Positions 9,001 to 36,000 of a stretch of 64,000 nt of DNA are shown in pieces (position 1 is the first letter of the stretch; the number at the start of each line of letters is the position of its first letter). Position numbers and translations under genes: made by a program. The stretch spans positions 10,380,821 to 10,444,820 of the forward strand of contig JAAONU010000013.1 of NCBI GenBank assembly GCA_012932295.1, in the 5' to 3' direction. Source of the stretch: Cyclina sinensis (taxonomy: Eukaryota > Mollusca > Bivalvia > Venerida > Veneridae). The notes under the pieces are model-generated. The model had not been told where the DNA came from. It did not search any database and was given only the letters and a program-made list of their open reading frames with translations.

Positions 9001-12000
9001 ATAATTACGCATATGAACGAGAAACCGTGATATATACGACGGTAGATCACGAAAATGTTAAAATCTATTTCCATTCTAACACGTACGTATATTTATAAGG
9101 GACGTTAGTATGTGCACTATTTAACAGTGGCGTTCTCAGTGACGTCAGCGGGCGCGCGCTTGTATTCAGCGTGCTATACTGCCTGATATATCACGCTCAA
9201 TTCCTTCTTTGTTTATTGTCGGCAAATTGCGGATAGTGTTAGAATAAAAGTTAAACCAGCGAACATTTCTTGTTGCAAATCTTATTGCAGTTCAATACAT
9301 GTTAATGTTTTGTAAGGTAAAAGGCTCGTCGTGTAATATTTGATAATTTGTGGTAACTGTTATTTCAAATTAACATCTCACAAAAAGACAAAAAAAAATT
9401 AAACAAACGCAAATCAGTTTTTTAACTGTTTCGTAACTACATTTAAATAGGGAATTAAATTTGTTACAAATGTGCGCTCTTTTTCTGGACAGAAAAAGGT
9501 GTTCTTAACTTAATAAACTTGAAAGTTTAGTGGAAAGAGCAAAGAGTATTTTAAAGGCATGCTACATACTGCTTCTCCAATGTTGTACTTTGGAGCATCT
9601 GACAGTTTTACTTTACTTATGTCTACTTGAAGAACCTGAGCTGTTATTGGTCGTGGTTTGAGTTGCCAAGGTGCACTGCTAGTCATTCTCTCCTGAATTA
9701 TCTTTATACATTCTCTTGCCTGATCGTCAAGTTGTTTACCGTGATAAGATGCTCCTTCAAAACCTGCCAAATATATTAAAGGCCGGTTTCCCTCATAGGC
9801 ATGATTTAGATTTTTATCTCCAAACTGTGTTAAGACAGTCAGCGATGAGCCGTCAGTCTTAAGTACCGCAAATCAAAATCAGACATCGTGATTATGTGTG
9901 CGAAATGGGGAAAAAGGAAGTTTTTATGAATCGTGTAGTTTCAACCATAATACCATCTGATGGCTTTTATTCGACTTCATGATCTGTGTTTTAACCGTAA
10001 TAAATATGTCATATCACCTATTTTACAAATCGTAATAACCTGACTTACCTAATTGTTAATAAAAAAAGCAGTCTGATGTGATAGCTCAGAGTTCAAAAAA
10101 CATTCAGGTATGAAAACTGATGCGTTTAAAGCGACTGACTCACAAAATTTTGCTGAATTTTTTTATTCTTTAAAATTTAAGAGGATTTAATATACTATGG
10201 AAAAAATATAATATCATGCTTCTATACACCATGAAAACTAAAAAAAGGTTTTGACTTAAAGTTATACACGGTCTATAATTTACCCTTACAAAACATAAAA
10301 AAAAACACTTCAGATCGATTTATTAGGGGGAAATAGGCATTATTTGAGAAAACATGTTATACTGATTCTTTCCCGTTTGTCGAATAAATAGAAATGAAAC
10401 ATGTATAAAGTTAAAAAAACTGGCAGTTTTTTTAACTCGCGGATATAGCCGAAGATAACGTAATTTTTACGACGATTTCCGTAAATCACGTGATATGAAT
10501 ATTAATTAGATACAAATCGTGAACAAAATGGCGGATGAACCGTTTCAAAAACGGAAGCGAAAGTCAACTGTGACGGATTCATCCAAGAAAAGGAGAAAAC
10601 AGGCATATAATTTAGGATTTAGCAAGGCCAGGATACACATTGGGAATGAGTTTACACGCTGGCGTGAAGTAAAAGCTGAGTTAGCTATAAAGACCGACGA
10701 AAAACTTGCCAAGTTTTTGCTGGACAGGTAAAAATACTAAAATGGATTTTATTCGAAACATTTGCGGTTTACTTAGTAATATACAATACACTCATGAATG
10801 ATTATTCGACGTGCAGTCTGTTTAGTTCTGGTATTAAAGACTGCCTTTTTTGTATGTTTCGATTATGTTACATATTAGTATTTTCAAATGAGTAGCCATG
10901 TTTCGTCCCAATAAATTTCGTACAATGAGGGAAACCAAATAGGCTATTTCTGTTACGGTTTTAATGAAAAAACATCGTCTGAATTGGCAGACAGTTTTAT
11001 TGTATGTAAACAAATTTGATAAAAACTATTTTATGACTAAGTCAGTACATCTCATGTAAAGGTACGGTCAAGTGAATTCTGTTATTTTCAGTTTTTTTTT
11101 TTTCATAAATTTTGTGTTACAGTAATGAACACAGAGATGTAAAGTAATGCCATGCTGTTTATTTACATGTTTCACTACTTCTGATGCTTGTTATGATTGA
11201 AATTGGAGAATTTAACTAAATATTTTTTACTTGCTGCTTTTATGAACTTACTTCTCATTCCCCAAAACAGATAAGAAATTAACAGCAATTATTGTATTTC
11301 AGATATGATTCATCTAAGTTGAAGCAGAGCCAAACAACACAAAGGCCATCTGGTCAGTTACACATACCAACTGCAACGCCATCCCATGTTTATCAGTCCT
11401 CTACACCAGGTCCATCACATGGATACCTGAGCATTCCTCAAATTCCTGTATCTGAGATATCATCAACATCAGATATTGGGGGCTCAGAAAGGTACTTGAA
11501 GTTAGATAATATATTTAACATATTTTTTCATCTAGGGTAGCGTGTATGTTGTTATACATTGTTGCTTTTACATAAATATTTACATAATTGTGTCATTGTA
11601 AAAAAGCGATCTATATAAGACCAAACATTAGTCTGGTGTCTAACCCAGATAAATTGTCACCTTGTCTGAATACGGATAACACTTATTATTTTGAAGATTG
11701 GCAAATACATTATATATAAAAAAATATTCTGCTTTTCACAGGGAAGAACCAGAAATGTCAGGTGTGGAGTCAGTTCATTCTGAAAAAAGTGGCACGGGGT
11801 AAGAGTTGAATATTAATTGCACTTTCGGTTCAAATAGTAAACAATGCATTTCCTAAATTGATGTGAAATGAAGGAACATTACTGTAAAACAGTATTGTTA
11901 ACAACAATCATTTATGACACTTGTATTTGTTTTGAAAGTTACTTTTTAACTGTTACATATGTATATGTGTGTGTGTATAAGGCAGTTGTTCTTTATTTGA

Positions 12001-15000
12001 TAGATTCTTTTTAGTATGAGGTATGAAGCAGTACCTTTATAATAAAAGCATACTGCGTAAAATATGAAAGAATTCCTTCTATACGTGTAGAGTAGTACAA
12101 ATTCATGTTTTTATGAATAGGTCAGCAGAGTTGAGAAGTGCTGGTGGGGTTCCTGTAAAATCTAAAGCCGGTCGTACACTTGAACAGAAAAAACTGTCTG
12201 CATCTTTTGCGGATCCTTTTGAGTAAGTTCAATTATAAATAATGATATCTGATTTTAAATTATTTGTTGAAAAAGTAAGAATAGAATCACTTGAACTATT
12301 GAACATGTATAAAACACACAGCTGAAACTACTAACATAAATTAGAGGCCTAGTTGTTGCCTATGAACCACCTTCTGCTAACTGCTGAGGGTTTGAATCAA
12401 ATTTGGGACTAAAATTCTCTCATACAGCAAAGATAACCAGCTGCATTAGCGAAGGTTGATGATTCTACCCAGGTACCTGCTTATGCATAAATTAATACCC
12501 AAAGGGGCAACAGGGGTGTTCATCCATTTTTAAAGCTAGAAATTCACCATATGACCTATACAGGTGTCAGTGTGACTGAAACCCAAGAAAATAGAATTAA
12601 ATAATGTGAGAACAGTAACAGTTAATTGGCTATAAGTTTCCATTTCATTTTTAAATGAAAAATATATATATTAAAGACGAAGAATATATTAAATATTCTA
12701 GAAGTATTTTCCTGAAATCACTGTTACAAATCAATTTGAGTCTATGTTGTAACACTTGAAACTTTATGTTGTGGTGGAATTTCAGTCTGTCCATCGACAT
12801 CACTTTGCAAGAGTCCAGCTATGAAGATTCTGATGACCCAGACTTTGAACCTAGCTTTGTATTATCAGCTGTTTTGTAAGTCTTTTTTAGAATTTGTAAA
12901 TTGTAAAATATCTGAGTCATTTAGAAGCTTGTATTGTTTGCTAGTAACTAAATGTCATTGTTGATTTTTTTCACAGATGATTCTTGGTGGCAGAACATCA
13001 AGATAAGCGGTTTAACTTTGTATTGAATTTGCTAAGAGGCTTCTGACGGATGTTCTCTGTAATAATAAAATTTCAATATCTACAAATGAAGTTGGTGTTC
13101 TGTCTGTTTCTGTGGCAGAAATGTTTATTATAAATGAAATGGAAAGTACAACATACCAAACTCATTTTTTTAAGTTGTAAAAATGGTACCAAATTATACA
13201 CAAAAATCGTAATAAATGAATTTATCTTTTTTCTGCATTTTAATTTCAGACCTAATGTTATCGATGATGAAGCAGAAGAGATGGCCTTTGAAGAAGTGGA
13301 ATTTGGACTGGAAGTAGACACAAACACTATTGATGAGGAGGGTACAGAGGAGGTGGAGGAAAAGCCTGGATTAATGAAGGTGGAAACAGATGACCAGTGT
13401 GATGAAGTCTGTTCATATACACTTTGTTTGTCATTCCTTCCACAGCTGAAGATGTTGGCCAGTATTAATGTTAACACGTGTAGTACAGTCAGTTGCAAAG
13501 GGGCAGTATCCATTGTTGACAGCTTTGTAGGGTCAGCTCTTTATTTCAGATGGGTAAGTATTTATATTTTTTACACTCATATAACATATGTCGAATCTCA
13601 GATTATATTTTTTGTTCAGTACAATAGTCAGATCAAGTCAAAATATTTTACTAATATGAAAAGCAGAAGTATCTTTTTTCATTGGTAACATAGTTAAACA
13701 GAAAACAAGTGAATAACATTTTGTTTGTTGATATAAATGGTGTGACCTGTATAAAGATAAAACAATGTAATACTTAGCTCATCTTGTAATGTTTTAGCTG
13801 ACTGTATGCATGACATGTGACAAGTTTTACTTATATGCTAGACAATTTTCTTGCACAGGCAGGCAGCTGGGAAAGCCATACTTCCTTTATTACCAAGTGG
13901 CAATGTCCTTGAAAGTTTCATATCTCTCGCACAGTGGTACGGGAATCTCATGTATACAGTTTTGCAACTGTATTTATGTGGAAACAGAAATTTTAGAGTA
14001 AGAAAATAAATACCACAGATATATAAATTTCTATTTGTAGGTGTGTAGCAATGGTCACATCAGCAAAGAATGGTGTTCACAACCAATATTAAACAAACGT
14101 CTTCACAGTGGAGATTTTTTGGTTTGTGGATCAATCTTAGCATCAGGAAACAACTATGGGAAATTGTGTTTATGGGCCAAGCTGCTGAATCTAAAATTTC
14201 CTTCGTCTGACCAATTTCACCGTATTCAGTCCACTTATCTTGTGCCAACTATAGACCAGTTCTGGCAGGAACACCAACAAGAAGTGCTGAACACTTTTAG
14301 GGGTCAACAAGTTGTTGTATTAGGTAAGACCGTTCATCTTTTTTTCAGCTCATCAGATCTATTGCATTTACCAGTCGTCGGTCTATCTACACTTTGCTTT
14401 AAAAGTATCTCCTCAGCCTCTCGGTCAATGTGATCAAACTTCACAGTGATGTTTCAGTGGATGATCCTCTTTCAAAGTTGGCTTAAAAATTTAAATCCAT
14501 GCAGAAGTCTGCTTGTTACTATTACTTAAAAAAAACTACTTGTCTGATTTCAAACTAAGCTGGCATACATGTTCCTTTGGTGAACATTTATCAAGATTAT
14601 TCATTTAAATTTGGATCGTCATGTGATGTAGCCTGTTTTTAGAATGTTATTGTCATAAATTGTTACACACTTTCAAAATAATTCGGCACAAATGTTCCTT
14701 GGGTGAAGCTGTACCGAGATTGTTCAAATAATTTTGATTTTTCAAAAACACAGCCACAGTGGGCATGTCTCTTTTCCATATAATTATGTATAACTGTTCA
14801 TGTCAGAAACTGCTAGCATGCAATCTATATTCATATATTTTCAACTTGGATCAATTTTTCAAAATGCAAAGGCTTCCTTTCAAATTTTGATGATACAATT
14901 CATGTGCAGTTATCTTTATTCACATGTGTGTATCTTGTTTAATAATAGTATATACAGTCAATAAAATTTGTTGTTAAGAATTTGAAAACAGTATATTGTA

Positions 15001-18000
15001 CTGTTTATATAGATAATGCATTGAAAAATTTGAAAGGTACCAATTGGTTAGATTATTATTGCTTCATTAGTGATTATTTGATGTTGTCTTCCAGGTGATG
15101 GACGCAATGACTCTCCAGGACATAGTTCCCAGTACTGTTCATACACCCTTATGGAAGAGACGACCAAAAAAATTCTAACAATAAAAACGCTGGATAAGCG
15201 TATGACAGAACGAAAGTCTGTGAATATGGAGAAATTAGGGTTTGAAAGAGGGATGTCCGAGTTAGAGACTGAACAAATTGAAGTCAAAGAAGTTGTGACT
15301 GATGCTCATCTTGGTATAGGAGCACTTATGAGTAAGTTTATAATGTCAAACTATTTAAAACTATATGACTTTGTAATGTTTCCCTGTAAAGTAATTGTGT
15401 TACAGGTTATGCAGAATATATGAAAAGGAATACCATGTGGTAACTGTATTATGGTATACCTTTTATGCCTGGTTTATACATATTTATAAAGAATGCCCCC
15501 TTCTCACTTTAAACAGATAATTTTATGAAAGTTTATCCTGCAATAACATGAAATTTCATGATACAGTTCGGGGAATACACATGTCTTATTATTTATTAGC
15601 TATCAAAGAACTCACCAAGTACCCTGGTAAATTTCTTTCAGTTCGTTTTAAGAAATTAACCATTTTTGAGAAACAAACATAAGATATTTAGGTCTTGTAG
15701 GTTGTTGCCGAAGATTAGTATGTTTATGAAGCTTTGACAACAAAAGTCTCTATTTTGTAGCCATTTTGTTATTAAAGTTGTTACATCATTTTAGCTTCTG
15801 ATAAGGGAATTTATCTGCTAGGCAATAGTCTTATATTCCTTATTGGCATTTCTTCTGTATAACATTTTGATAATAAAAGAAAGTTTGCTTGACATATTTG
15901 ATATATGTGTTACTTATTATATTATTGTTATATTTCAGAATCAAGGTACCCAGACATAAAGCACTCCCATGATATTTGGCATGTGGCAAAGAATCTCGGG
16001 AAAAAGATAGTGAAGGTAACTTCTTTACTAAAATAGATACAAAGCAGTTTAGTTAGAAACCACTTTGTTTGTCATAGTGTTAATGTGTTTTAACATAGAG
16101 ATTCATAAAGCAGAGAGATTGGTCAAGCAGAACATAAACACAAGTCAATGAGGAGTGTTTAGTGCGGCAGAGTGACTCCAACCACTTGGCAAAAATTAAA
16201 GCAATGAAGGCTGTGTTATATAAAATTCTGAAGACTTATAACACAAACAGTTAATTTGTATTGTTAGCTTGAATTTATTCATTGTAAGAAAACAGTAATA
16301 GTAAGTTCATATTGAAACCTAGTTAAGGATGGTGAAAATAATCCTCAGGTGGGGTGAAGACCAAGGTGGATTTGACTAAATTATGTTTATTTTGTATGGT
16401 CGGCAAAAAATATTGTGATGAAAGGTATTATGCAGCCAGTTATTTCAGTTTGTGACTGGTTTTGGGGCAGATCTGGTCCTCAGTGTAAAAAAGGAATTAT
16501 GGTTTCCACTTAACTTGAGGTAGGCCACATTACCTTTTAGCAGTTGACCTGGACCCTACTGTACATGACATGCAGTTTGTAGTATTGTAATACAGCCCTA
16601 TTCTCTTCATCTCATTATTTGCTAGACATGTTGCTCATGGGCTTCTAGTGTGCAAAATTTATGACAAAAAGTACATCTTTTTTTTGTGTTTCATTATTTT
16701 AGATTGCTCAGAAAAAGCAGAACTCAGTACTGTTGAAGTGGTCAAAGGACATTGTTAATCATTTCTGGTTTGCATGCAAAGAAGCAAACACTTGCAGTCA
16801 GTTTGTGGTAAGAGTTTGTTTTATTTATGGTAGAATTGTTGTTGAATAGCAACAGTGTTTTGGAGTAAACTTTCCTTTTCAAACTTCATGTGAAATTTCT
16901 ATATAATGATAAAATATTTGGAAATAAAGAAAATGCTCGGAAGTTTGTATCCAGCCCACATAAACAGAAAGAAAATGCTCGGAAGTTTGTATCCAGCCCA
17001 CATAAACAATTGATTTTCTTGTTTTCTTGGGATTAAGTGTGGCTACATAATGACTTTCTAGCTTTTATTGGTGGAAGAAGGTTTCAGTTTCTTCACAGCT
17101 TTATTTTAGGCATAGTTTTGGCACTGTGGTAGAACCACATATGTTCCCGTTGTATGACTTCATCAAATTTTCCACTTCTTGGGTTTTGAACTGACAGAAG
17201 TTAGGGGCAGTTATGTGATTTTGTGTTGGCAACCTAACCACTATGCCAAAGAGGCCTTTCATGCAAAGAATATGTAGACCTGTTATCTTGACAAAATGTT
17301 AAGATATAGAGATTGAGATTTCAGTCAGCATCAGAATTTTCAACAACTGGTTTATTGCTATATCATCTGTATTATTCCATTTTAGCAGATGGTACATTGT
17401 ATATGACCATTCTGCCCTTACACATGCAGAACTAATAAATATGCAACCTCACTAATGTCACTAACTGGAGATAGATCAATAAAATGTTATATTGCATTGT
17501 ATTTAGAGCATCTGGAGAAGTGTACTCCATCACATCACAAACACACATGAATGGATGTTACCAGATGGAAATGGGCAGACAGGATGCTTGCATGAACCTA
17601 TGTCAGCAGAGGAGGTTCGAGACAAACCATGGCTGGACCCCTCCAAAGATGCTGCAGCACTGAAGGATTTGACTAGTCTTGTTCTAGATAAAAGACTTCT
17701 GAAGAAAGTGGGCTATTACTTGAACTTCAGGTATAAAGTTAGGTTACTTTGGTTGACATTATACAAATATCATGTTCTAAGCTGACTATCATTATTTGAA
17801 TTTTAGAAAAACACCAATATCCATGCTCCTTTATATGTTATCTTGTCTCATTCTTCTAATCATGCCTGAATGTCTATAAAAAGTTATGGAAATAAATATA
17901 TCATGGTAGATATTTTCTTCCATTTACCGTTTATTGTAGGGCAAGTTATAACAAAACTTGCGTCCAATACTTATGATTTCAGCAAAAACTTGATAGCACT

Positions 18001-21000
18001 TGATAACTTTAATAATATTACAGGAGCACAGCTGATCTGGAAGGATTTCATCAGCTAATCCTTATGTACTGCTCCAAGAGGTTTTCATATTCCCCACCTG
18101 TTTATAGAGCAAGAAATCGCCTTGCTGCTCTTGACCACAACATGAACCTGAATAGAGATGTGATTGTCAACAAAGATGGAACTCAAAGGTAAAACTACAC
18201 TATCTGTTGGAAATTGTAGCATTAATCAAATAGTGAGAGTGTCCAGTTTTCTTTTCATTTAAAACTTGAACCTTCATATTTGCTGCTAATAGTGGACAAC
18301 TTCCTATCTTGAATATGTGGTTGAGACAAACCTCCACTTATAGTCACTTGTAAATCGGTCTGAGGAAAAATGAATTCTGAACAGATGTTCCATATTATAA
18401 GCAATTGTTACTATTAATCTGTCAGGCAATGGTCAGAAGTGATATAAAATGACATTGTTACTTGGACACTGTCTTGGAAACTCTGTTATCATCTAATTGG
18501 TTCTTTCTTGACCTAACAATCAAACAAAACAAACCTAAAGAAATCATACTTTGCCCCTACAGTAGGACAGTGAAAGCTGTGCTTTACTCCACCATTTAAA
18601 AGAAACAAAAGTAATCAGGTTTTAAGAATCTTTGAATAAAGTTCATCTCTAATCAAGACCTTTTTATGCAGTCACAAAGATTGTCTTTAGACACAGATTT
18701 GAGTTTTACACAAGTGTTTCGAATAATGGTAAACATGTCATAAAAAATTACTAACTCATATTTTATTATTGGCCAATTCTGTCTATGCTATTTCAAAACA
18801 GCTTGTTAGAATTATCACAAAGTTTTCACCTATTTCAGATTGCAGAGATTATGGAATAAGAAGAGTGGCAGATGGACTGCACATGTGAAAAAAGTTCAAA
18901 AGGACTATGGCTATGTAAAAGACATTCAGAAAAGAGCATTAAAGATGCGTATTCATGACAAGACTGGCATGAGAAGAAAAAAGGAGCTTGAGGCTGATGA
19001 TCCAAGGCGTATATCTTCTCACCTTGCACCAGAAGAACCAAAATCAACCAGGGAAATTATGGCTGAAAAAGTGTCTAGATTCAAATGAAATGTAGACTGT
19101 GTCAATAACATAACAACCAGCCTCATAACATTAGGTTACAGCTGTGGATACAAAAACATTTTACAAAGTAAGACAGCTGCATCAGTAAGTCAGAGCTGTT
19201 GTTCATCAGTTTAATTACTCTGGTTTCCCAGTCCAAAAATAGTACACATTTACACAGTTGTGACCAAAAAACAAATGTATTATGTTAAAATTCCATTTTT
19301 GAAAATATGCAACACAGTATGTTGTAGGCTTATTGAGCGAAGTTTTCCCTCATTTTTTAAAACATTTTATTGAACAGATTAAAGAACACAAGTGATGTAA
19401 AAAATGATAATATTCTGCAGACTTATTTATATGCACTGTCTTTGACTTTGATGAAGCTGTATTAAATTTTTCCTTTTTATGCAACATCTACAGGCAGAGT
19501 TTATTGGGAAAATTATTACTAATATAGAAAATTGGTTTCCAGTCAATAACAAGTATTAATTGGTCAATCGTGACCAAACTTGGTATATATATCACCCTTG
19601 CACGGAACCTAGCTAAGGGTTGTACTTGGGCTTAGTCGGGTCAAGGTCATTGTTACTAAAAATAGAAATTCAGTTATCGTTTATTAATTTGGGTTTAAAG
19701 GGACTGACTTACAGATGGGCCAACGATGGGAAAAAAAGGAAAATTTTTATACATCTTGAAATTCTTGCTGTAATTGTGTAGAACATATCTAAACTAAGTT
19801 ACTGACTCATTTTTGTTACAGAAAAACATCAAATGTATAATTTTACACAGTTTTATTGGTAGAAAATTTTCCCTGTTAGTCATGGGGTAGATACTTTAGT
19901 TGTGAAATTAATCTTGACGAAACTTGTTAACTAGTCACTGTGGCTCAGTGGTGTAAATCATCGCTCTTAATTTTACGGACCGAAAGGTCATGGGTTCGAA
20001 TCCTGGTTTTCAATTTTTTTTTCAGTTTTGGTGGTGTATAGAAGCATAATAATCATGTTTTTATTCCATAGTATATTAACTTCTCTTAAATTTTAAAGAA
20101 AAAAAAAATAGGCTAAATTCTGTGAGTCAATCGCTTTAAATTGACTGATCTTTATGATACTATGCTTACAGCATCCTTGTAGCATTCTGGCATCTGCATG
20201 CATTTTGTACACAGGCTGTGTGTTACAGTTCACAGATTTTTGTCAGACTAACGACCATTTCTCAACTAAAAATTTCTATCATGCATTCAATTACTAATAT
20301 TTTTTCTATAGTTATGTGCCCTTTTTCCTCTGACAAATGTGTATGGCAGTACTCATTGAATTTAGTGATAGCTCTAAACTACTGTTTCTGTTCTATTTGG
20401 TGATTTTTAGCTCGACTATTCGAAGAATAAGGAGGGCTATGGTTCTCGCCCTGGCGTCGGTTCAAGTTTTAGGGCAAGTTAACATTATACACCTATCCCT
20501 TGCAGATATAGCCTTGAAACTTACAATACTTGTTTACCATCAACAGCTTACTCTACTAACAAGAGGAGGTAACTCTTGTCAAGCATTTTGTGTGAATTAT
20601 GGCCTGTTTTTGATTTAGAAATTTTTGTCCATTTCTCAAAAAGTGTCTAAGATATTCCATTCGAACTTGGAATACTTGATCACCAGCAAGACCCCTGCAA
20701 AGATTGTTGGTACCCATGTATCTCTGGTTACCGTTAGCCCCACCCCAAGGGGTCACTTGTTTTTGCTTATACTTATAAATAGGAAAAAAAAACTTCTTAA
20801 GCTTGAAATAAAATATTAACTGATTTGAGATGGGTAAGTACTCCCCCTTTTTTCCCCTGCATCCCCTCTCTGCATCCCCCCGCCCCCTTAACCCCCCCCC
20901 CCCCCCCCCCCACCCCGGCCGGATTTTTTTTAAATACATGAGTACTTCACTCCCCATCCACCCTCAAACCTGTGACTGCCACAAGAGGAGGTAACTTTGT

Positions 21001-24000
21001 CAAGGATTTTGTGTGAACTTTGACTTTATAAGGTTTTATAACCCTTCAGTGTCAAGTACTGAGAATAGTCGAGCGCGCTGTCCGCTCTTGTTCATATGAA
21101 TTGTGACAAGAATGATATGTGATTCTTTTATGATTAATTTAGGCTGTTTCTTTTTTTCTGGTACCTTTCTAATTTTTGTTCACTTATTCATGTTTTTCTT
21201 GTATGCAACATTAATTATTCATTTAGATTCTAAATAGAATATATGGCAAAAGGTAACTTGCATGGAGACGACAGTGCTTAAAGAAACCAATGTTAATTGT
21301 CTATCTCCTGAAAATGAAGAATCCCAGACTCCAGTCTTGTATTTTTCACCATGTTTCATTGCCTGGCATTTTAAACATATCAGTTAATCTTTATTACTTT
21401 TAACTCTGTATATATTTGATATGTATAATGAAACAACAAATAAAAATGATACATTTTTATTTCTTTCATGTATTTGCGTATTACACTTTAAAACAGGTTT
21501 ATTTCTTTTGTCCGAGGAAAGTCATTGATTATATCCTTATCCAAGCCGAGATGGCTTATAGCCAGTATACTGTCCAAAAGGATCAGGGAATTTGTCCCTG
21601 ATCCTCCAAACACAACATGAAGGAATGACCCTCCTGTCCCCAACTCCCAAGTGTCCATACGTCCACAGAATATACTGCCTGTATGCGGTGTGCCTATTGG
21701 CAGCCATCAGGTCTGGCTCATCGTCATATACTAATATGTCTTTGCGGAGAAGACGAGCGAGTGCAAGGACAGCTTCGTCCAATATAAGTACTTGGAAGTC
21801 CTGAAGAATAACAACTGTAAATGACAAATGATTTTTATAACATTTTCTGTTGTTTCATTCATTGGAATTTTCACATTAGTCAAGAAAATATACTCCCATC
21901 ATTGTAACAAAAAGGTTAAGTAATGTCACTGATCCATGGCTGATTGAGACTTTGATCCTTTATTTATGATGCTACTGGATTTTTAACAAATGTTGATATT
22001 TCATAAAGAACACTAAATTTTTGTATAAATAAATAATGCGAGATCTACTTACATTAGCATACAGTCAGCTTACTTTGTAAATGTAAATGCACTAAAAATA
22101 ATTATATATAAAGTGATTACTGGTTTGTTTTTTAAAGCTATTCAAAAATGTCCATCTCTTTACATGGTAAAAAGCAGCACTGTACAGTTTAAAATCATGT
22201 AATACCAAGATATGTAACTGCTGTGTTTATAATATCAAAATCTGTTTAACATTACTTACTGGTATTAGGGAGATACAATTTTCCTTCCCACAACAGACTC
22301 TTTCTATCTGTGTGGGCATTTCCCTGCATTTTGTACACACACACCAATTGGGGGATGCAACATCAGGGCCTGGATGATAGCCACCAGGCTGTCTTATAGC
22401 TGGCCTCATGATGTCAATCATGACTGTTGGATTCTTCTCCAGAACATGGAGAAGGAGCTCTCTGCTGTCCTCTAAAGACATCTGATTTATTTCATCCTGA
22501 AAGAACAACAAAAACATAATCATTATGAGAGAAATTCCTCTGCAGTTATTTATCAGTCAGAAAGTATTTTGTCTGTTATTTGATTTCAACCAGTTATCAA
22601 TGTACTTTCAGAATGCTAACACTTTAAGTAAAAATGACATCTCTTTTATGATGTTGACCTTTGATGATACTATTGGCAAGTGTTTAATATTCTGTTGTAT
22701 TTATGCCAAAAGTAACCAAAAGTAAAGCACTTTTGTTCATCAAAAAATTACAAAAATAAAACATCGGATTTTTCAATAACTATATTTGAATGAACCTTAC
22801 CACTACAATGTTTTTTACAAGTATACATTTTTCCTGCCATACAAGTAATATATATCAATTTTCTGCTGTTATTATGTACAAATACAAAGTAGGGGCATAA
22901 TAGTTACCCTCATGCTGTCTTGTCTCTGCTGGATATTTCTAAGGGCTTCATCTGCCCTTCCTTGCTCAGACCTACTCCGAGAACGCCCTCTTGATCGAGT
23001 TCCCCTTCTGGAAGCTGCCCTTCCACGAGAGCCACTCCCTCTCCTTGAACCCCTTACACCACGACCTCTACCACGTCCTCTCCCCCTCACATTTCGCTCT
23101 TGGTTACTTGATCTTGAGCTGGAACCTTCTTCTTGCTGAAATAAGTGTAAAATATAATTCACACGCAGCCCTCATAGTAAGCTTTTTTTCGGGATACCCA
23201 CAGTTATACCATACCAGGTGTATTCTCTGTTTGGTTTTATCATCATACCTTTTAAAAGATTTAATTCTTGCGTGAAAAACTACTACTGCAGACCTATATG
23301 AAGGGACCAGGTTTTGGTTACGAATACACTAAGGTACGAATAGGTGGTTTATATTTCAAATTCGTTCAGCACGTTTAATTAAACACATCGTTCGATCGAA
23401 CTCATTTATTATGAACAAAGTATATCAATGATATTTTGAACCATCAACTTCAAGTACATGAAAAGTTTTCTTTTTACTCGTTTGAACACTCATCATTTAC
23501 CGCAGTTGTGCAAGTGTTTTTGATGCATTTCTCTATTATTTAAAAATTATATCTTAATAGTAACATGCGGAAATATTGCATACTTCATACGATGTATATC
23601 AATTGACAATAAATTGATGAAATACTTACCAAATCCATCGCTGACTCCTCATCAGAATTTCTCGAATGCTCCGACATTTTGTTTTTGTTTTGTTGACCTT
23701 TTGGGCGAACTTCCGGTATGCATAAATTATCCATCGCCAAATGTCGGATAGCAGCGAACGAGCGTTTGCTTCGATATTTGTTTTTGCAAATATCTTATTT
23801 AAACCTTTACTTTTTACATAGTTTTCGGTCAAACAAGTTTAAATAAAGATGTATAAGCTTGCATGGCAATAAAATGGATTTTATTTTTTTGGGTTCAGAT
23901 GCGCCAGATATATCTTTAACCAGGATTCGAACCCACGACCTTTCGGTCAGTAAAATATAGAGCGACGACTTAGTCCACTGAGCCACGACGTCTAGTTATT

Positions 24001-27000
24001 AGATTGCCTCAAAATTAATGCTATAACTAAAGTATCTACCCCGTGACTAACGCGGTAAATTTATGATAAAAGTGTGTAAAACTTTATATTTTGACGTTTT
24101 TCTGTCACAAAAACTGAGTCAGTAACTTAGTTTAGATATCTTTTTCACGATTACAGCAAGAATTTCAAGATGTATAAACATTTTCTTTTTGTCATCGTCT
24201 TGAGTCAGTCGCTTTTAAGAAATAGTGTGGATTGAAAATCGATTCAAATTTTTAGAAATTAATATTTACTGTTTCAAAAAATGAACATTGAAAAAATTCA
24301 TTCAGAAATTGATCACTTAAAGAATATAAAGTAAGTCATTTCTAATAAAAAGAATTTTAGGAAATGCCCCTTTAAAGAAGATGCCAAGATGGCCCTTATA
24401 GCAACAATGCTGTACTGTATTCTTAGACCAGAACAATCTGATGTGATGCCAAAATTTAAAAAGATCATTACAATTTTAAACATGTGCTGTCAAAATATCT
24501 TTTAATATATTTCTGGAGCAGACAGAAAGTAACGGAAAAAAGCTGAGTTATATCACTGAGAAGTTTCATGACCCCGAGTAAAACCTTTTGGTAGCTTTTT
24601 TCACTAAATCAAAGGCTATAACTTTCCTCTTCTTGAAAGAATTGAGTTGAAAAACCCCATCTGCGCAACTTTATACGCTGATCTATATTCCCGTGAAGTT
24701 TCATGAATGTTAGTCTTAAAAAGAATTTTCTCTTTAATTGTACATTTATCGCGTACGAACAGCAAAATGTTATAATAAAACATAAAAAGACATTGAAATG
24801 CAAAATTATCACCTTTTAACCCTTTTCCTTTGTATGTTTTTGCAATGATGCATGTAGGTTTGCCATTCTGTTTTGAGGACTCAAAGAAAGTCCTACAAAG
24901 GCTCTCAATGTTATGCCCGTCTATGATGTAGGTGTTACATCTGCAAAAAAATCCATAAAACGTCAAAATGGTTAGGATTTATTTTCAAATATCAGGAATT
25001 CGTCCAGCATTTCGTTGGTGTTATTTTAGAAAATGTTGTAATAGTTTCTTCTTTGGATTTTTCTTGTGACTATGTACAAGTCGCTTCAAGTGCATCAACA
25101 TGATTATAGGAGTAACATTACCTCCATTTATGCGTGGCAATTTTGTTATAATAATATGTCTATGTAATAAATTGATAAATTCAACATGTTTAAGATCGCT
25201 TGGGAAGAGTATCAAGATTCCAGTGGTGACAAGGACGACTTGCGGCATATCACAAATTCAATTTCTGGTTCATAACTTATAACTATTTTTGTCTTTTGTA
25301 TGAGACGAACCATCGAGGTCAATGTATCAGAACAATACATTGAGCATGTAAAAGAACCAGTAGTATCTCTGGAACGAACGTGATATTTTCTGTTTCTTGC
25401 ACTGGCTGGGTTTTGGTTATAATGACAACCGTTACTGACGATAAATAAACTCGGAGCAGGGTCAAGCTTGTTTGAAAATAAAATATTCATTTAATTGCAC
25501 CTATGTTTACAAGATTTGACCTAGTTTAATGAATATGCCAGGCAGTTAAACTTGTTTCGTTGAAAAGCTATCAAAATTTCCAAATGCGCTGTTTTCTTAA
25601 ATACTCTAGTTTCATTTACCATTGAATTTCATCGCTTTATTTTTAATATATTTAATATATTTTTATATATGTTTTTACAAGGTTCGTGAACCGGTGAAAA
25701 AAATAACATACCCGAATGACTTCAATTTTATTTCATAACTGTTGACGTCATGCCCATACATTGTCTCCTCGTAAGACCCATATTTGTTGATGTCAAATAT
25801 AGCCACTAGATTATCTAACTTGTAATAGCAAGCAAATGCTATAGCTTCCCAGACAGCCCCCTCCGCACACTCACCATCCCCTAGCACGCAGTAAACGCGA
25901 TAACTAGAAAAAAAAAACAGCGAGTTTGAAACATTTATTTAAACACATTAGCCGACAATGTTAGTCGAAACTCATTAGTCGACAATGCTAAAAAAGATGA
26001 TAAACGTGATAAATTAAAACTTAAGAGTGTAAAACGTGCTGTAAGTACTTAGGAGCAAAATATTTTTAAAAAATGAAGTCGACGATGTTAATTGAAATAA
26101 AGCGACACAGTTTAAATGCAAAGTACAATATTACTAGTAATGAGAGCTCGTAAAACATGCAATATACGTAAAAGGTAAATTGAATAAAAATCGACAGCGT
26201 AAGGGTTTTAAAATCTATGTGAGGAAAGATGACAAAGGTAACGGCACGAAAGACGTTAACCTAGAAAGATAGCGCTAAAGAAGCAAAAGACACAAATATT
26301 TCACAGCCACAACGTTGACTTTGAACTTTTCTTCGTGAAATAATAACTTAAGAATTTACTAACACGAGATTCTGCCAATTAAGATTTCTAGAATTACTAT
26401 GTTATTCTGTCAGGTAAATAACTTTTAGATTTACGTATATTTACGATACACTTCTATTTTGAAAACAGTATTTTTTTTCATTTATAACTGAGTAAAAGGG
26501 TAAATAAGATGTCCTTCATTCTTTTTATCAAACTCACTCAGATTTGTCAAAATATTTGCCAGTGTACGCCATGCCCGCGGCACAACCAACACCTTGACCA
26601 AGTGATCCTGTGGCGACATCGATAAACTTCAGTCTCTAAAAACAATAGATGATGAATGGCATACATTAAAATTGCAAACATCACATACAGTTTAAAACAT
26701 CCACATTTATTCCTGACCTTTTAAAACCTTTAAAAAAGCTATTTGTTTTATTGTTTGCTAAACGTCAACCTTAGTTTTAGAAACCTAGCTACACAGTCAT
26801 AAATAAACACAATTAAGTACCTCGCATTCGTAAGAGACAGAGAAATATAATAGTTCAACTAGATTGCATTCAGAATTACAATTAATGGAAAATGTAATTG
26901 TATAAAATAAGCTCAGTGTTTTAATAATATTATTTTAGGAGAATAAAATATAAAAGACAACAACCCTTAATTGTTTTAATTCTGATATTATTATTCTTGA

Positions 27001-30000: not shown

Positions 30001-33000
30001 ATGGTGACTTTTCTGTTTGAAATGTTTTTTTAAGGTTTCAGTATTCAGTTATTCTCGACTAATGGTTAGCATCGTTTAACTGCCAAAAGTGATATAAACA
30101 TATTGTACTCTTGGTTCCAACAAAAGCAAACATGAAACCTGAAAATTCGATTAATTGCATAATACACGGTAGAGACAGAAATTATGACAAATAAATGTCT
30201 TTGCACTTTGTACTCTGTAGATCAAGTAACGCCAGAGAAATAAGATTTTATTGTTAATGATGATCTGAATACATGAAAATCTCAAATCTCGTTAAATTCC
30301 GCGAAAATGCCTGTTGGTACGTGTACGCTACAAATAGCTTTTAAGGACAAGCCGTAGACTAGTGGGACATTTAGTACTCGAGTAGCATTTAAAGACAGAC
30401 AGGAATTCATAAACACGACACAGTTTTGAATGGATTAAACTCGCCGAATCGAACTTTATGACACACTAAACTCTGCAAATGCACCACGCTGCATAGACAT
30501 CTAGGCACCAATGTCCCTGAAAAAGTGTCCACTGTAAAACTGATAGGTGTCATTCAAAATAAAGGCACCTAGAACTTTAACTATCTCAAAAACCTGTTTA
30601 GATCACGCTCCCCCACATTTTTATGAGAAAAAAAAACATTCCGAAAAAAAGACTCAGAAAGAAAAAACACAGTAAATATGTCAACTCCCTTAAGCTGAAA
30701 TACTTTTTTAAAAATAAAATCGAAACAAAACAAACAAAAATGTAGCCATGTAATACATCTCGTCAAGCAATGATACAATTGTAAAAAGCATTCAAGAGCA
30801 TTACTTGTCAATCAAACATAGATACAATCCATATCGAGAGAAGACAAACAAATGGCACGTGCCCAAAGGCTAACTGATTTAATGTATTTATTTTTCATTT
30901 GTTGCCTTTTTTCTGTGTTCGAAATCGATGTTGCCCTATAGCATCCATCATTCCCGATTATTTCAATCCACATCCAATAGTATACTTACTGACAATTATT
31001 TTGCGCTAAACTGTTTATATTCAGTTGGACCAATAATTGCATGATTGGCGTTCCATAGTCTAACATGCTACATCATTCGACTAAGGTCAGGCGAATCTAC
31101 TCAAGTCGCTGCATTTAACTTACAGGTAAATTATCGCTAAATATGCGAATTCATTCACTTATCATGTATTTTATCACTCCAATCATTTGAAACTAATGGT
31201 AATCACGTTTTTATTTAATCATTTGAATATTTTGTCGAACACATTTTCGCACTTGATAAAATTAACATCATTCGACTCAAGTCAGGTGTATTTTATAGTT
31301 TCTGCAGTCGCTGCATTGTGCCTCACAGGCCCCGTGATCCCTAACCACTAGAAGTTGAGTTCTTGTTTATTAGCGGTAAACATTAATGACACGGTTTTTT
31401 TTTTTTTTTTTTTTTTTTTTTGACGATTGATATTGAATTTGTACTATTTTTCGAGTGGTTTAAAAATTACTTACAGGTGTTGGATGCCCTTCAAAGTCGG
31501 AATTGATTTTTCTGAGACCGTTGATGAAGTCGTCCACATGAAAAAGACCTGCTTCCGCCCAAGCTGCATACAGAATAGGACACGCATGACCCTGAAAACG
31601 TATTGTAAACGTCTAAGGAAATATTAGAAGACTATGAACAATGTAACGAGATAATAAAAGGAGCATTTCTTTACTAACATCAAGTCCATCAGTCTCATGC
31701 TTTTACTGTACTGGACAAAAGATTTATTGATTTACATAAGATCTACTTGTTTTTTTTTTTTGTTGTTTTTTTTTTTTTTTCATGACCGAGTCACAAATCA
31801 GATAAGGTAAATGAGATATAATGCTGATTTGTCGTTACTTCAAAACTCTTATTTTTCAAGTGAAATTAAACATCTAGTAACCTCGTCCTTTTGCAAAATA
31901 TGATATTACTCAGCTAAAATGAACCTTAAAAAACTAACATTTTCATTTACAAAAAAAACTCCTTTATTCACTGACAGTTATTTTTTATTTTGTTTCCTGT
32001 AATTATGGTCATATACCTTAAACTAGTCATCCATGCTTTTTTTGTGATACCTGGGTACTTTTTGTGCTAATTTGGATCAACAAATATAGTACTTAGTAAT
32101 TATGTTATCGGCAAAATTCAACTTTTTGTCCACCTAGACGTATTTTACTGTTACACAATTTACATGTTTCTTATTATTATTGTTCTGTCTTTTGTTGTAC
32201 ATAATGTTCTCAGATCCCGTTCTTTCAGGATGACTCATCCTTATGATAGGAGATTGCCTGTGTATTTGTATTTTGTTAACACTATAGACCGACCGCCGTC
32301 CGTCATGGAACTTTGTGTGTGTGTGTGTGTGTGTTCTTTTCCCACATAGGTAACAGCTTAATGGCATGGCGGTTAGCGATTGGTCTATTTTACAACGGCG
32401 TACAGGAATTTAAACATAGAACCTATTATACACATTCATTTTGCGGCGTATTACTCAGTCTTTTCATGGAAATGTTATTTTTCCTGTTTAGTTCATTGTA
32501 TAATTATATTATATCGTTATACTACCACGCCAAATGCACACAATTTACATTATGTATTTTTACCCATTCCATTCACTCATTATGTGTACTCGTTATCATA
32601 AATATCCTTTCGCTCGACTTTTCGCTTTTAAATTTTGAGATATGCTCAGTTATCCTTTTGTTATTGATTTTAAGTGGTGATATAGAGAAAAATCCAGGTC
32701 CGTCAGACCAGACTGAAATTAACTGTTTGTCAATTTTTTGTCAAAGTATCCGTAACAAGACAGAATACATAAACGACAACTGGTCAGATTTTGATATACT
32801 TTGTTTTACCGAAACGCACCTTGATTTCGCTGTGAGTAATGAAACTGTAAAATTAGATGTTTTTTCGACGTTTTACAGAAGAGACGTTACGTGCCACTCG
32901 GGTGGACTATTAGTGTATATTTCAGATGACGTAGTTTCTAAACAAAGGCAAAATCTAGAAATTTATTTAAATGAATCGTTGGTGATATAAATGAAGATGA

Positions 33001-36000
33001 GCTCAACATGAGCAATAATAAATTCAGGGAAATTCTTTTGTTAAATGATCTAAGAAACGTAATCAATGAACCGACTCGCGTTACAGATACTTCAGCAAGT
33101 CTTATCGATCCTATAGCTGTTTCAAGTAGTATAGATGTTCTTAACTCAGAAAATTTTCATACTCACTCTTCTATCAGCGATCACTATGGTACATACATAT
33201 TTATAAAGTTTTTGAAGAAAACGCCTACTTCATACAAAAGACGAGTCTGGAATTATAAACGTGCAGATTTTAACAAACTTAATAATCTAATAAGTAATAC
33301 CGACTGGTCAATTTTAAACCGAAATACCGTCGACTCAGCTTGTGATCTATTTACTGACGTTATCCTAAATCTTGCGGAGAAATGTATTCCCACAAGTATC
33401 GTTACTATACGTTCATACGACAGACCGTGGTATGACTCTGAAATTCGTCATACTACTAGAAAAAGAGACCGCGCTAAGAAAAAAGGCACTTAGGACAAAA
33501 TCAATAACAGACTGGAATTCCTTTAAACATTTACGTAATTTAGTTAATAACCTAAAAAAACATGCAAAAGAATCGTTTTTTAACAACCTAGAATTGTCTC
33601 TGGAAGAAGCCAAAACAAATAATCATTTTTTTTTACTGGAAAACGGTTAAGATGCTTATCAGAAATTCTTATTGTGAAAATAACACGATACCTACATTAA
33701 TTGTTGATAAGCATGGAACAGAAGAACACTACATCACCGATAAAGAAAAAGCTAATTGTCTAAACGAATATTTTACCTCTGTGTCAACAGTTGATGATTT
33801 TTCTGTTGTGCTACCGAACTTTGCTTATAAAACAGATAGAATATTACCTGACTTTACAATTCAGATGCAAGAAATTAAAGACATTCTAAAAGGTTTAGCA
33901 CTTAACAAAGCTGTTGGACCTGATAAGATTAGCCACAAAATATTGAAAGAGACATGTGATAGCATCTCTTATCCCCTCTGTATATTATTCAATCGATCTC
34001 TTCATGAAGGTATAATCCCGATGCCTGGAAACTTGCACATGTAATGCCATTATTTAAGAAAGGAAACAGAAATTTACCAAATAATTACAGACCTATCTCA
34101 CTTATCAGCTGCGTAGGAAAGTTATTAGAAAGAATAATATTTAAACACATTTTTAATCATCTACACACTAATAAACTTATATATCCACTTCAATCTGGTT
34201 TTCTTCCCGGACATTCCACAGTTTATCAGCTAATGGATATGTATCACCAAATATGCGAGTCCTTTGATAATGAACTGTCAACATGTATAGTCTTTTGTGA
34301 CATATCTAAGGCGTTTGATCGAGTTTGGCATCCAGGTTTACTTTTTAAACTTAAACAATATGGTATAAACAATAAACTACTTCAGTGAACGCGCGACTAC
34401 CTTACGAACCAGAAACAATCAGTTTTTATAAGATCTGAAACATCAAGCACTTTGAGTATCTCAGCAGGTGTACCACAGGGCTCTGCTCTTGGCCCTCTTC
34501 TTTTCTTAATATATGTGAACGATATAGCTGATAATCTTCTTAGTGTAACTAGACTTTTCGCTGATGATAGCTCTTTAGCTGTATCTTCCAATGATTTAAT
34601 TGAAATAGAAACGACACTTAACAGCGATCTCGAAAAAATAAACGTATGGTCTAAGCAGTGGTTAGTCGATTTCAACCCAAGCAAGACTGAAGTTATGTGT
34701 TTCTCCTCTAATCCCAATAACAAACCTGAACTGGTTTTTAACGAGACTCCTCTAGATTTTGTAGACAGTCACAAACACATAGGTTTAACCCTTTCATCTC
34801 ATTTAAAGTGGCATCATCACATTAACAATATTATGCTATCAGCATCTAAAGTTCTTAATTCTATGCGACTTCTAAAATTCAAATTGAAAAGAAGAAGTCT
34901 CAACCAAATATACACTTCTTATATGCGTCCAATATTAGAGTACGCATCAACAGTCTGGGACGGCTGTTCAGCATATGAAAAACAGTCACTTGAATTATTG
35001 CAATACGAAGCAGCGCGTGTAGTAACAGGTCTAACACGATCAGTTTCTATTGAAAAATTAATTCGCGAAATTGGTTGGGTGTCGCTCTCTGATAGGCGAA
35101 AAATTAAAAAATTAGTTATAGTTTTTAAAGCTAAAAACGGCTTTTTACCCGAATATCTTTCAAGCATATTCCCGCAGTTGCTAGCAGACGTTACCACATA
35201 TCCCCTTAGGAACAATGATGATTACGTTACTGTCGTGAGACGTACTCAACTTTATAACTGTTCATTTCTACCTTCATCCCTCGAATTATGGAATTCTCTT
35301 GAGAACGATATTAGAAATTCACCTTCGCTAAATATGTTTAAAACTAAACTGAAAAAAGTTTTCAAGGCCCCTACCATACCTAAGCATTTTCTTTATGGGG
35401 ACAGATATCTATCAGTGATCCACTGTCGATTAAGAAACAATTGTAGCAACTTAAACAACGACCTATTTATTAATCATTTAAGAGACAATTCCACTTGCAA
35501 CTGTGGACATAATGTCGAAAACGCCGAACACTTTTTTTTCCGTTTCTCCTATTTTTCCAATCAAAGAATTACGCTTTTCCACGAAACGAGAGCTTTTCAT
35601 CCGCTTAATGTTAACTTATTACTATTCGGAAGTGATTTTCTAAATTACGAGCAAAATACAATAATTTTTGAAGCCGTCCACAAATTCATTAAACAGAGTA
35701 ACCGGTTCAACTTCAATTAATTTAAACGGCTCTGAAACCCTGTACCCTACCTTCCTTGGGGGCTCTTCTGTGGGTATGTTATTCCAAAAGAATGGGATCT
35801 GAGATACGATATCCGTTACGATATCAAAAAATGATTTCACATACTTAACACACGATCAATAAACATCAACTGTGTGTTTTTTTCTACATTTTTTTCTATT
35901 TTTACTTGACACTGTTTTGTCATACATGTACACTTCTTTCTTCCTTCCACGCCGACTTATCATTTGTTATGAACTATAATTCTGGAAAGGGCGTTAAGCT

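Follow-up and report, generated by a model that had tools for sequence, protein, structure and literature searches.

Does a gene for a P2X7 ballast-domain protein belong to the DNA transposon in which it lies, or is it there by accident? The question is raised by a stretch of 64,000 nucleotides from the bivalve Cyclina sinensis (here called the window; C5:10380821-10444820 in an assembly of 902.9 Mb and 154 contigs). Between two TTAA tetranucleotides it carries a Kolobok-type transposase gene and, converging on it, a ballast gene of the type known as KolX. In identity and composition, the element is very probably an autonomous DNA transposon of the Kolobok superfamily, of the KolX-bearing, Kol0-like type. 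An initial reading of the window (the original prediction) had proposed a two-gene TTAA transposon of a kind that it did not know to have been described; the two-gene element is borne out below, the novelty is not.

Boundaries and mobility of the element

The transposon body (10260..23915, + strand) is 13656 bp long with termini AG...CT. It is framed by TTAA target-site duplications on the left (10256..10259), where homology with copies on C7 and C154 begins, and on the right (23916..23919), where homology with copies on C7 and C14 stops. It interrupts a dispersed repeat, whose left half (10130..10255, + strand) begins TTAA|AGCGACTGACTCA and whose right half (23920..24213, + strand) finishes TGAGTCAGTCGCT|TTTAA. 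Removal of the transposon and one TTAA leaves a sequence whose alignments to two further copies of this repeat in the window, at 20140-19734 (82%) and 1497-1928 (77%), are uninterrupted. Both copies cross the junction and lack the transposon. The first of these is nested within the element itself (19734..20140, - strand) and is also present inside the C7 copy. The interval 10256-23919 is a DNA transposon that is bounded by TTAA and lies inside a dispersed repeat with a continuous empty site, which agrees with the TTAA positions and interrupted host element originally described.

A full copy is located on another contig (G000:C7:27441231-27454888). It is 99.34% identical to window 10256-23919 over 13682 columns, with 48 mismatches. 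Homology halts exactly at the TTAA on both sides and the C7 and C5 flanks are unrelated; with window 9900-24300 as query, the remaining matches concern only the nested repeat. Most of the mismatches (33 of the 48) are concentrated in three short stretches (15549-15889, 19720-20009 and 23241-23342), so that outside them the two copies hardly differ and transposition was recent. The whole 13.66-kb unit, both genes included, has moved as one piece. KolX is intact in the C7 copy, with a single residue changed. The clustering of mismatches in these stretches is the pattern expected from gene conversion with other copies.

Two truncated copies each retain one end. One (L074, C154:2252496) starts at the left TTAA and extends for 728 bp; the other (L038, C14:14404606) starts at the right TTAA and extends for 1328 bp; both are 99.9% identical to the element. 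Their inner breaks are abrupt, with no other element end in the next 2-3 kb fetched. They may be products of gap repair interrupted after excision.

Segmental duplication or an assembly artefact might also have joined the two genes, and a related family does occur in tandem arrays with a period of approximately 15-17 kb. This explanation is extremely improbable: the C5 and C7 copies break exactly at TTAA between unrelated flanks, and the window copy is inserted in a dispersed repeat of which two other copies in the window do not contain the element.

The transposase and KolX genes

The transposase gene (10528..19088, + strand), defined with the aid of homologs, has 13 exons (10528-10727, 11303-11491, 11742-11798, 12121-12222, 12786-12875, 13250-13553, 14041-14323, 15095-15331, 15939-16015, 16703-16807, 17507-17730, 18024-18188 and 18839-19088) and encodes 760 amino acids. 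KolX (21537..23677, - strand) has four exons (23677-23630, 23135-22908, 22496-22260 and 21800-21537) and encodes 258 amino acids, a basic tail rich in arginine and glycine (RG-rich) followed by the ballast domain. Both genes splice at GT-AG and read without a stop, and they converge from starts approximately 270 bp (transposase) and 240 bp (KolX) inside opposite ends. A first transposase model of 805 amino acids, with an additional 45-amino-acid exon (13863-13997), was rejected and the exon dropped because relatives skip it; the 805-amino-acid model was that used in the Pfam search and the transposase homolog search. Two further long open reading frames inside the element match nothing in Pfam at E <= 0.1. 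The two convergent, intact genes of the original prediction are therefore confirmed, and its statement that nothing else coding lies inside holds for the two long frames checked, with the nested host repeat as an additional component.

The protein search identified 80 ballast and 89 transposase relatives; a profile search identified 178 relatives, of which 120 are among the matches listed. In the transposase, the aspartate-aspartate-glutamate (DDE) triad (D410, D478, E629), the D and W of a DIWH motif (499-502) and the H2CH residues are conserved among the 89 homologs, counting the rows that cover each site. For H557, H562, C575 and H577 the counts are 78/80, 81/81, 82/82 and 80/81 rows. The D, W and H of DIWH are also kept in a 38-row alignment. 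The features of the Kolobok superfamily are present, namely the TTAA duplication, 5'-RR...YY-3' termini (AG...CT), a DDE domain with C/DxxH, and H2CH. A predicted model of one relative (P0091; mean predicted local distance difference test score 74.6) matches ISCth4 (8.4e-7) and the P element transposase (1.9e-4). The conserved residues and this fold match uphold the assignment as Kolobok-like. The Pfam transposase models matched were of the ISL3, Mutator and MULE types, none of which reached its own cut-off. A piggyBac identity was rejected: no piggyBac Pfam model matches at E <= 1, and the model of P0091 resembles ISCth4 and the P element.

The N-terminus has a different character. A module RxxIGxxxxRW...FLLDRY, sought with a regular expression of our own, occurs in 38 of 163 relatives and in 35 of the 77 that have at least 640 amino acids. 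It is modelled, with moderate confidence, as three helices. For transposase exon 7, the proportion of nonsynonymous differences (pN) is 0.24-0.28 and that of synonymous differences (pS) 0.64-0.79 in eight of nine comparisons with the window. In the ninth, with a C16 copy, pN and pS are about the same, as expected of a copy that is dead.

The second protein matches Pfam P2RX7_C (1.1e-32) and the P2X7 chains in PDB (best 2.4e-19), and the predicted fold of a relative (P0002) agrees with the P2X7 ballast; its identification as a ballast protein is consistent across all three. Like the ballast of P2X7 and Nanor, KolX has the predicted ballast fold and seven conserved zinc cysteines. It also keeps equivalents of several residues named for guanosine diphosphate (GDP) in rat P2X7 by Rump et al. 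2020 (PMC7016195): those of R546, H547 and R578 are found in 75, 67 and 80 of 80 rows. The equivalent of Y550 is kept as well. In contrast to P2X7 there is no channel, the equivalents of R574 and K583 are not kept (V and D in the window protein), and an RG-rich tail is present instead. Of 81 proteins, window protein included, 47 have at least 60 residues N-terminal to the ballast, and in 34 of these the basic tail contains six or more RG/GR pairs. Viral contigs scanned with P0002 gave seven pattern matches and no relative.

For KolX exon 4, 11 comparisons with the window gene, not all independent and some between near-identical loci, give pN of 0.07-0.24 against pS of 0.25-0.89. These values indicate that the exon is under purifying selection. 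Two ballast copies on C12, compared with each other, have approximately equal nonsynonymous and synonymous rates (dN and dS), so some KolX copies may be decaying.

Association of KolX with the transposase

Is KolX a component of the element or simply present in one lineage of copies? A search of the genome gave 121 ballast exon matches at E <= 0.001 (134/134 candidates scored) and 59 transposase exon matches; transposases are undercounted because only 59 of 304 candidates were scored. The scored matches form 27 transposase and 70 ballast clusters. An opposite-strand ballast cluster lies within 18 kb downstream of 18 of the 27 transposase clusters, not all independent of one another, compared with 0.0007 expected per random position. 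At these 18 loci the best exon is 51-95% identical to the window KolX. As judged from these exon matches, element families that have diverged from one another share the convergent arrangement. Conversely, 52 of 70 ballast clusters are unpaired with any transposase cluster that was scored; given the undercounting, this does not show that they lack a transposase, and direct inspection of a locus on C3 did find one. Inspection of 6 kb beside seven other ballast loci, the C3 locus included, revealed at four of them (C2, C14, C1 and C3) a transposase that converges on the ballast gene and is divergent in sequence. A search locus on C19 also shows one.

The full C7 copy, the association at 18 of 27 clusters, its recurrence across families and the purifying selection together make the ballast gene a real component, as had been proposed. 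Other copies of the transposase do not consistently lack it. A passenger origin, in which KolX would be a captured host ballast gene with no role in transposition, is improbable. It could draw on the three remaining inspected loci (two on C12, one on C6), where KolX has no transposase within 6 kb, and on the ballast-only genes reported across Metazoa (PMC7016195). These must be set against the convergent pairing that recurs across divergent families in one genome, the selection on exon 4 and the KolX genes carried by Kol0 elements of other animals (PMC9587614).

The named relatives that score highest are mostly from bivalves (Saccostrea, Mya, Sinanodonta), with a priapulid second for the transposase. 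Co-location in other species was judged from identical contig size alone, each row standing for a 90% cluster, represented by the longest of its contigs. Forty of the 80 ballast rows could be used, 35 of them in species with a transposase row; rows without a size, short metagenome or transcript contigs, one ncbi row and Protopterus, whose contig size is capped, were left out. Ten of the 35 have exactly the same contig size as a transposase row from that species. Eight of these contigs are chromosome-sized and weak indicators; the other two, of 169,089 and 447,411 bp, are Saccostrea cucullata scaffolds, and on the shorter one the locus numbers differ by 7. A co-divergence test on pairs matched in this way gave a Mantel r of 0.74 for six pairs including the window pair (12/720 permutations as high) and 0.57 for seven pairs (54/5040), with one close Saccostrea/Ostrea pair standing out. 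The Dreissena pair used P0168, two other transposase rows having the same contig size. The present findings suggest that many bivalve database entries named 'P2X purinoceptor 7-like' are transposon genes.

Several other families of the genome carry both genes. One (C3 versus C15) breaks at TTAA|AGAGGCATACCC, with two flank bases common as well. In another (C2/C14), homology stops no more than 2 bp from a TTAA with CA inside, and the KolX-side end is seemingly TTAA|CA. The boundary in the C1/C19 comparison lies beyond the 1 kb compared, and no TTAA end was found at the C14/C18 and C12 breakpoints. At the C12 loci (C12:46216062-46237243 and 35151846-35162958; L013-L015) exon 4 is about 82% like that of the window KolX and copy-to-copy homology ends at the stop codon; the two loci examined there are possibly KolX-only pieces. 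The tandem arrays belong to a related transposase-plus-KolX family (C14:4795374-4838897, C11:47916794-47988975 and C18:6008696-6051339). Their repeat unit is about 15.3-16.6 kb, with three units on C14 and at least four on C11, some inverted.

Relation to known elements and possible role of KolX

The original prediction knew of no transposon with such an accessory protein. Elements of this kind are, in fact, already in print: according to Kojima and Bao 2022 (PMC9587614), the Kol0 group of Kolobok encodes a transposase together with KolX, a protein with the cytoplasmic ballast fold. The same authors state that a P2X4-like gene fused with KolX to give P2X7, and they regard Nanor as a probable domesticated KolX. 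The window element resembles Kolobok-1_XT/Kol0 (Kapitonov and Jurka 2007, as described in PMC9587614) in its TTAA, its 5'-RR/YY-3' termini, its DDE transposase, which has C/DxxH and, ahead of the final E, a Cys/His motif, and its second protein. The Kol0 hallmark, a KolX with a predicted ballast fold, is present. The Kol0 examples named there come from vertebrates, annelids, cnidarians and sponges; molluscs are not among these groups, whereas the window element is molluscan.

Xenopus XKol elements (PMC6004289) share the TTAA, AG termini, short imperfect inverted ends, DDE and H2CH, and their lengths of 6.8-13.9 kb are comparable. Unlike the window transposase, with its other N-terminal module, the Xenopus Kolobok transposases, XKol included, have a THAP domain, and the main text of that paper contains no occurrence of KolX. 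KolobokP (PMC9587614) is likewise a bivalve Kolobok with a convergent accessory gene on the opposite strand and known multimers. It differs in that the accessory protein is a His-Me finger nuclease, oyster families measure 4.0-4.7 kb and the terminal direct repeats are long. The longest direct repeat listed for the window is 66 nt and internal, and the second gene is P2RX7_C; KolobokP was rejected as an identity. Rump et al. 2020 describe ballast-only proteins in oyster and limpet, and the string 'transpos' is absent from the main text (PMC7016195). A survey of bivalve transposons includes 43 Kolobok consensus elements and, as far as its available text goes, mentions neither KolX nor P2X7 (PMC10294476). 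What the present locus adds to a kind already described is a set of complete, recently mobile copies in a bivalve genome in which KolX-bearing Kolobok elements are numerous, a non-THAP transposase N-terminus, an RG-rich tail in the majority of full-length KolX relatives and tandem arrays in a related family. A connection of KolX with the P2X7 ballast had already been published; the 2022 paper is the one that we found on it, PMC9319628 also mentioning Kolobok and P2X7 once each. In the literature on that connection we found no function for KolX.

In the mechanism that we envisage, the 760-amino-acid transposase would bind the AG...CT ends and its DDE, RNase H-like core would excise the element and join it to TTAA. 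KolX, with its basic RG-rich tail preceding a dinuclear-zinc ballast domain, would be its partner, a cofactor binding DNA or the transpososome. End pairing, target contact and nuclear delivery are candidate tasks. The element would need KolX and therefore keep it. Such a DNA-binding role in transposition is, on balance, the probable one, given the charge of the tail, the selection and the association. A stronger version, in which KolX is an obligate factor whose guanine-nucleotide- and zinc-binding ballast gates or assembles the transpososome, so that P2X7 would use a domesticated regulatory module of a transposon, is unlikely. Many chromatin and RNA-binding proteins have RG-rich tails. The tails of KolX relatives could also fit a protein that aids the element outside the transpososome by host regulation (escape from silencing, or transcription), and a role in transcription has been proposed for the related zebrafish Nanor (PMC7016195); we regard this as conceivable, if rather doubtful.

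A number of observations weigh against an autonomous element with KolX as its transposition cofactor. The C7 transposase is broken by two in-frame stops. The inverted similarity of the ends (AGTTATACACGG / AGATATATCTGG) is weak, at 8/12 bp; among the 76479 pairs of TTAA in the window, 583 attain this level by chance, 17 of them with AG at both ends. No THAP domain was found by Pfam, nor an N-terminal THAP-like signature, using our own regular expression, in 163 relatives and the window protein; in the superfamily, H2CH is described as usual and the THAP domain as usual, not universal (PMC6004289). For nine of the 27 transposase clusters no KolX converges within 18 kb; seven of the nine are single-exon matches. 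Close to two of them (C18) there are ballast genes in different orientations, for the two on C12 and C16 a ballast gene lies at a distance of 59-84 kb, and for the remaining five there is none within 100 kb. Three tandem arrays supply eight of the 18 paired clusters, which are therefore not independent. The absence of a transposase within 6 kb at three of the seven ballast loci inspected means that KolX also occurs without one, and 25 of the 35 cross-species ballast rows share no contig size with a transposase row. Finally, DNA binding by KolX is suggested by charge only. The genome offers complete recent copies, with both genes intact in that of the window, precisely defined ends, an unoccupied target and families related to this one, which makes the proposed cofactor role testable by ordinary transposition assays.

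Two other repeats in the window can be described briefly. The dispersed repeat interrupted by the element (10130-10255 plus 23920-24213; 19734-20140; 1497-1928) is about 420 bp long, with inverted ends AGCGACTGACTCA beside TTAA. A stretch in its middle resembles a tRNA B-box, and the repeat looks like a TTAA-flanked miniature inverted-repeat transposable element with a tRNA-like insert, a likeness that is unproved because ARAGORN finds no tRNA in the window. The region 32280-35720 resembles a retrotransposon of the type without long terminal repeats, with a weak, sub-threshold endonuclease match and a reverse-transcriptase match at 2.5e-11.

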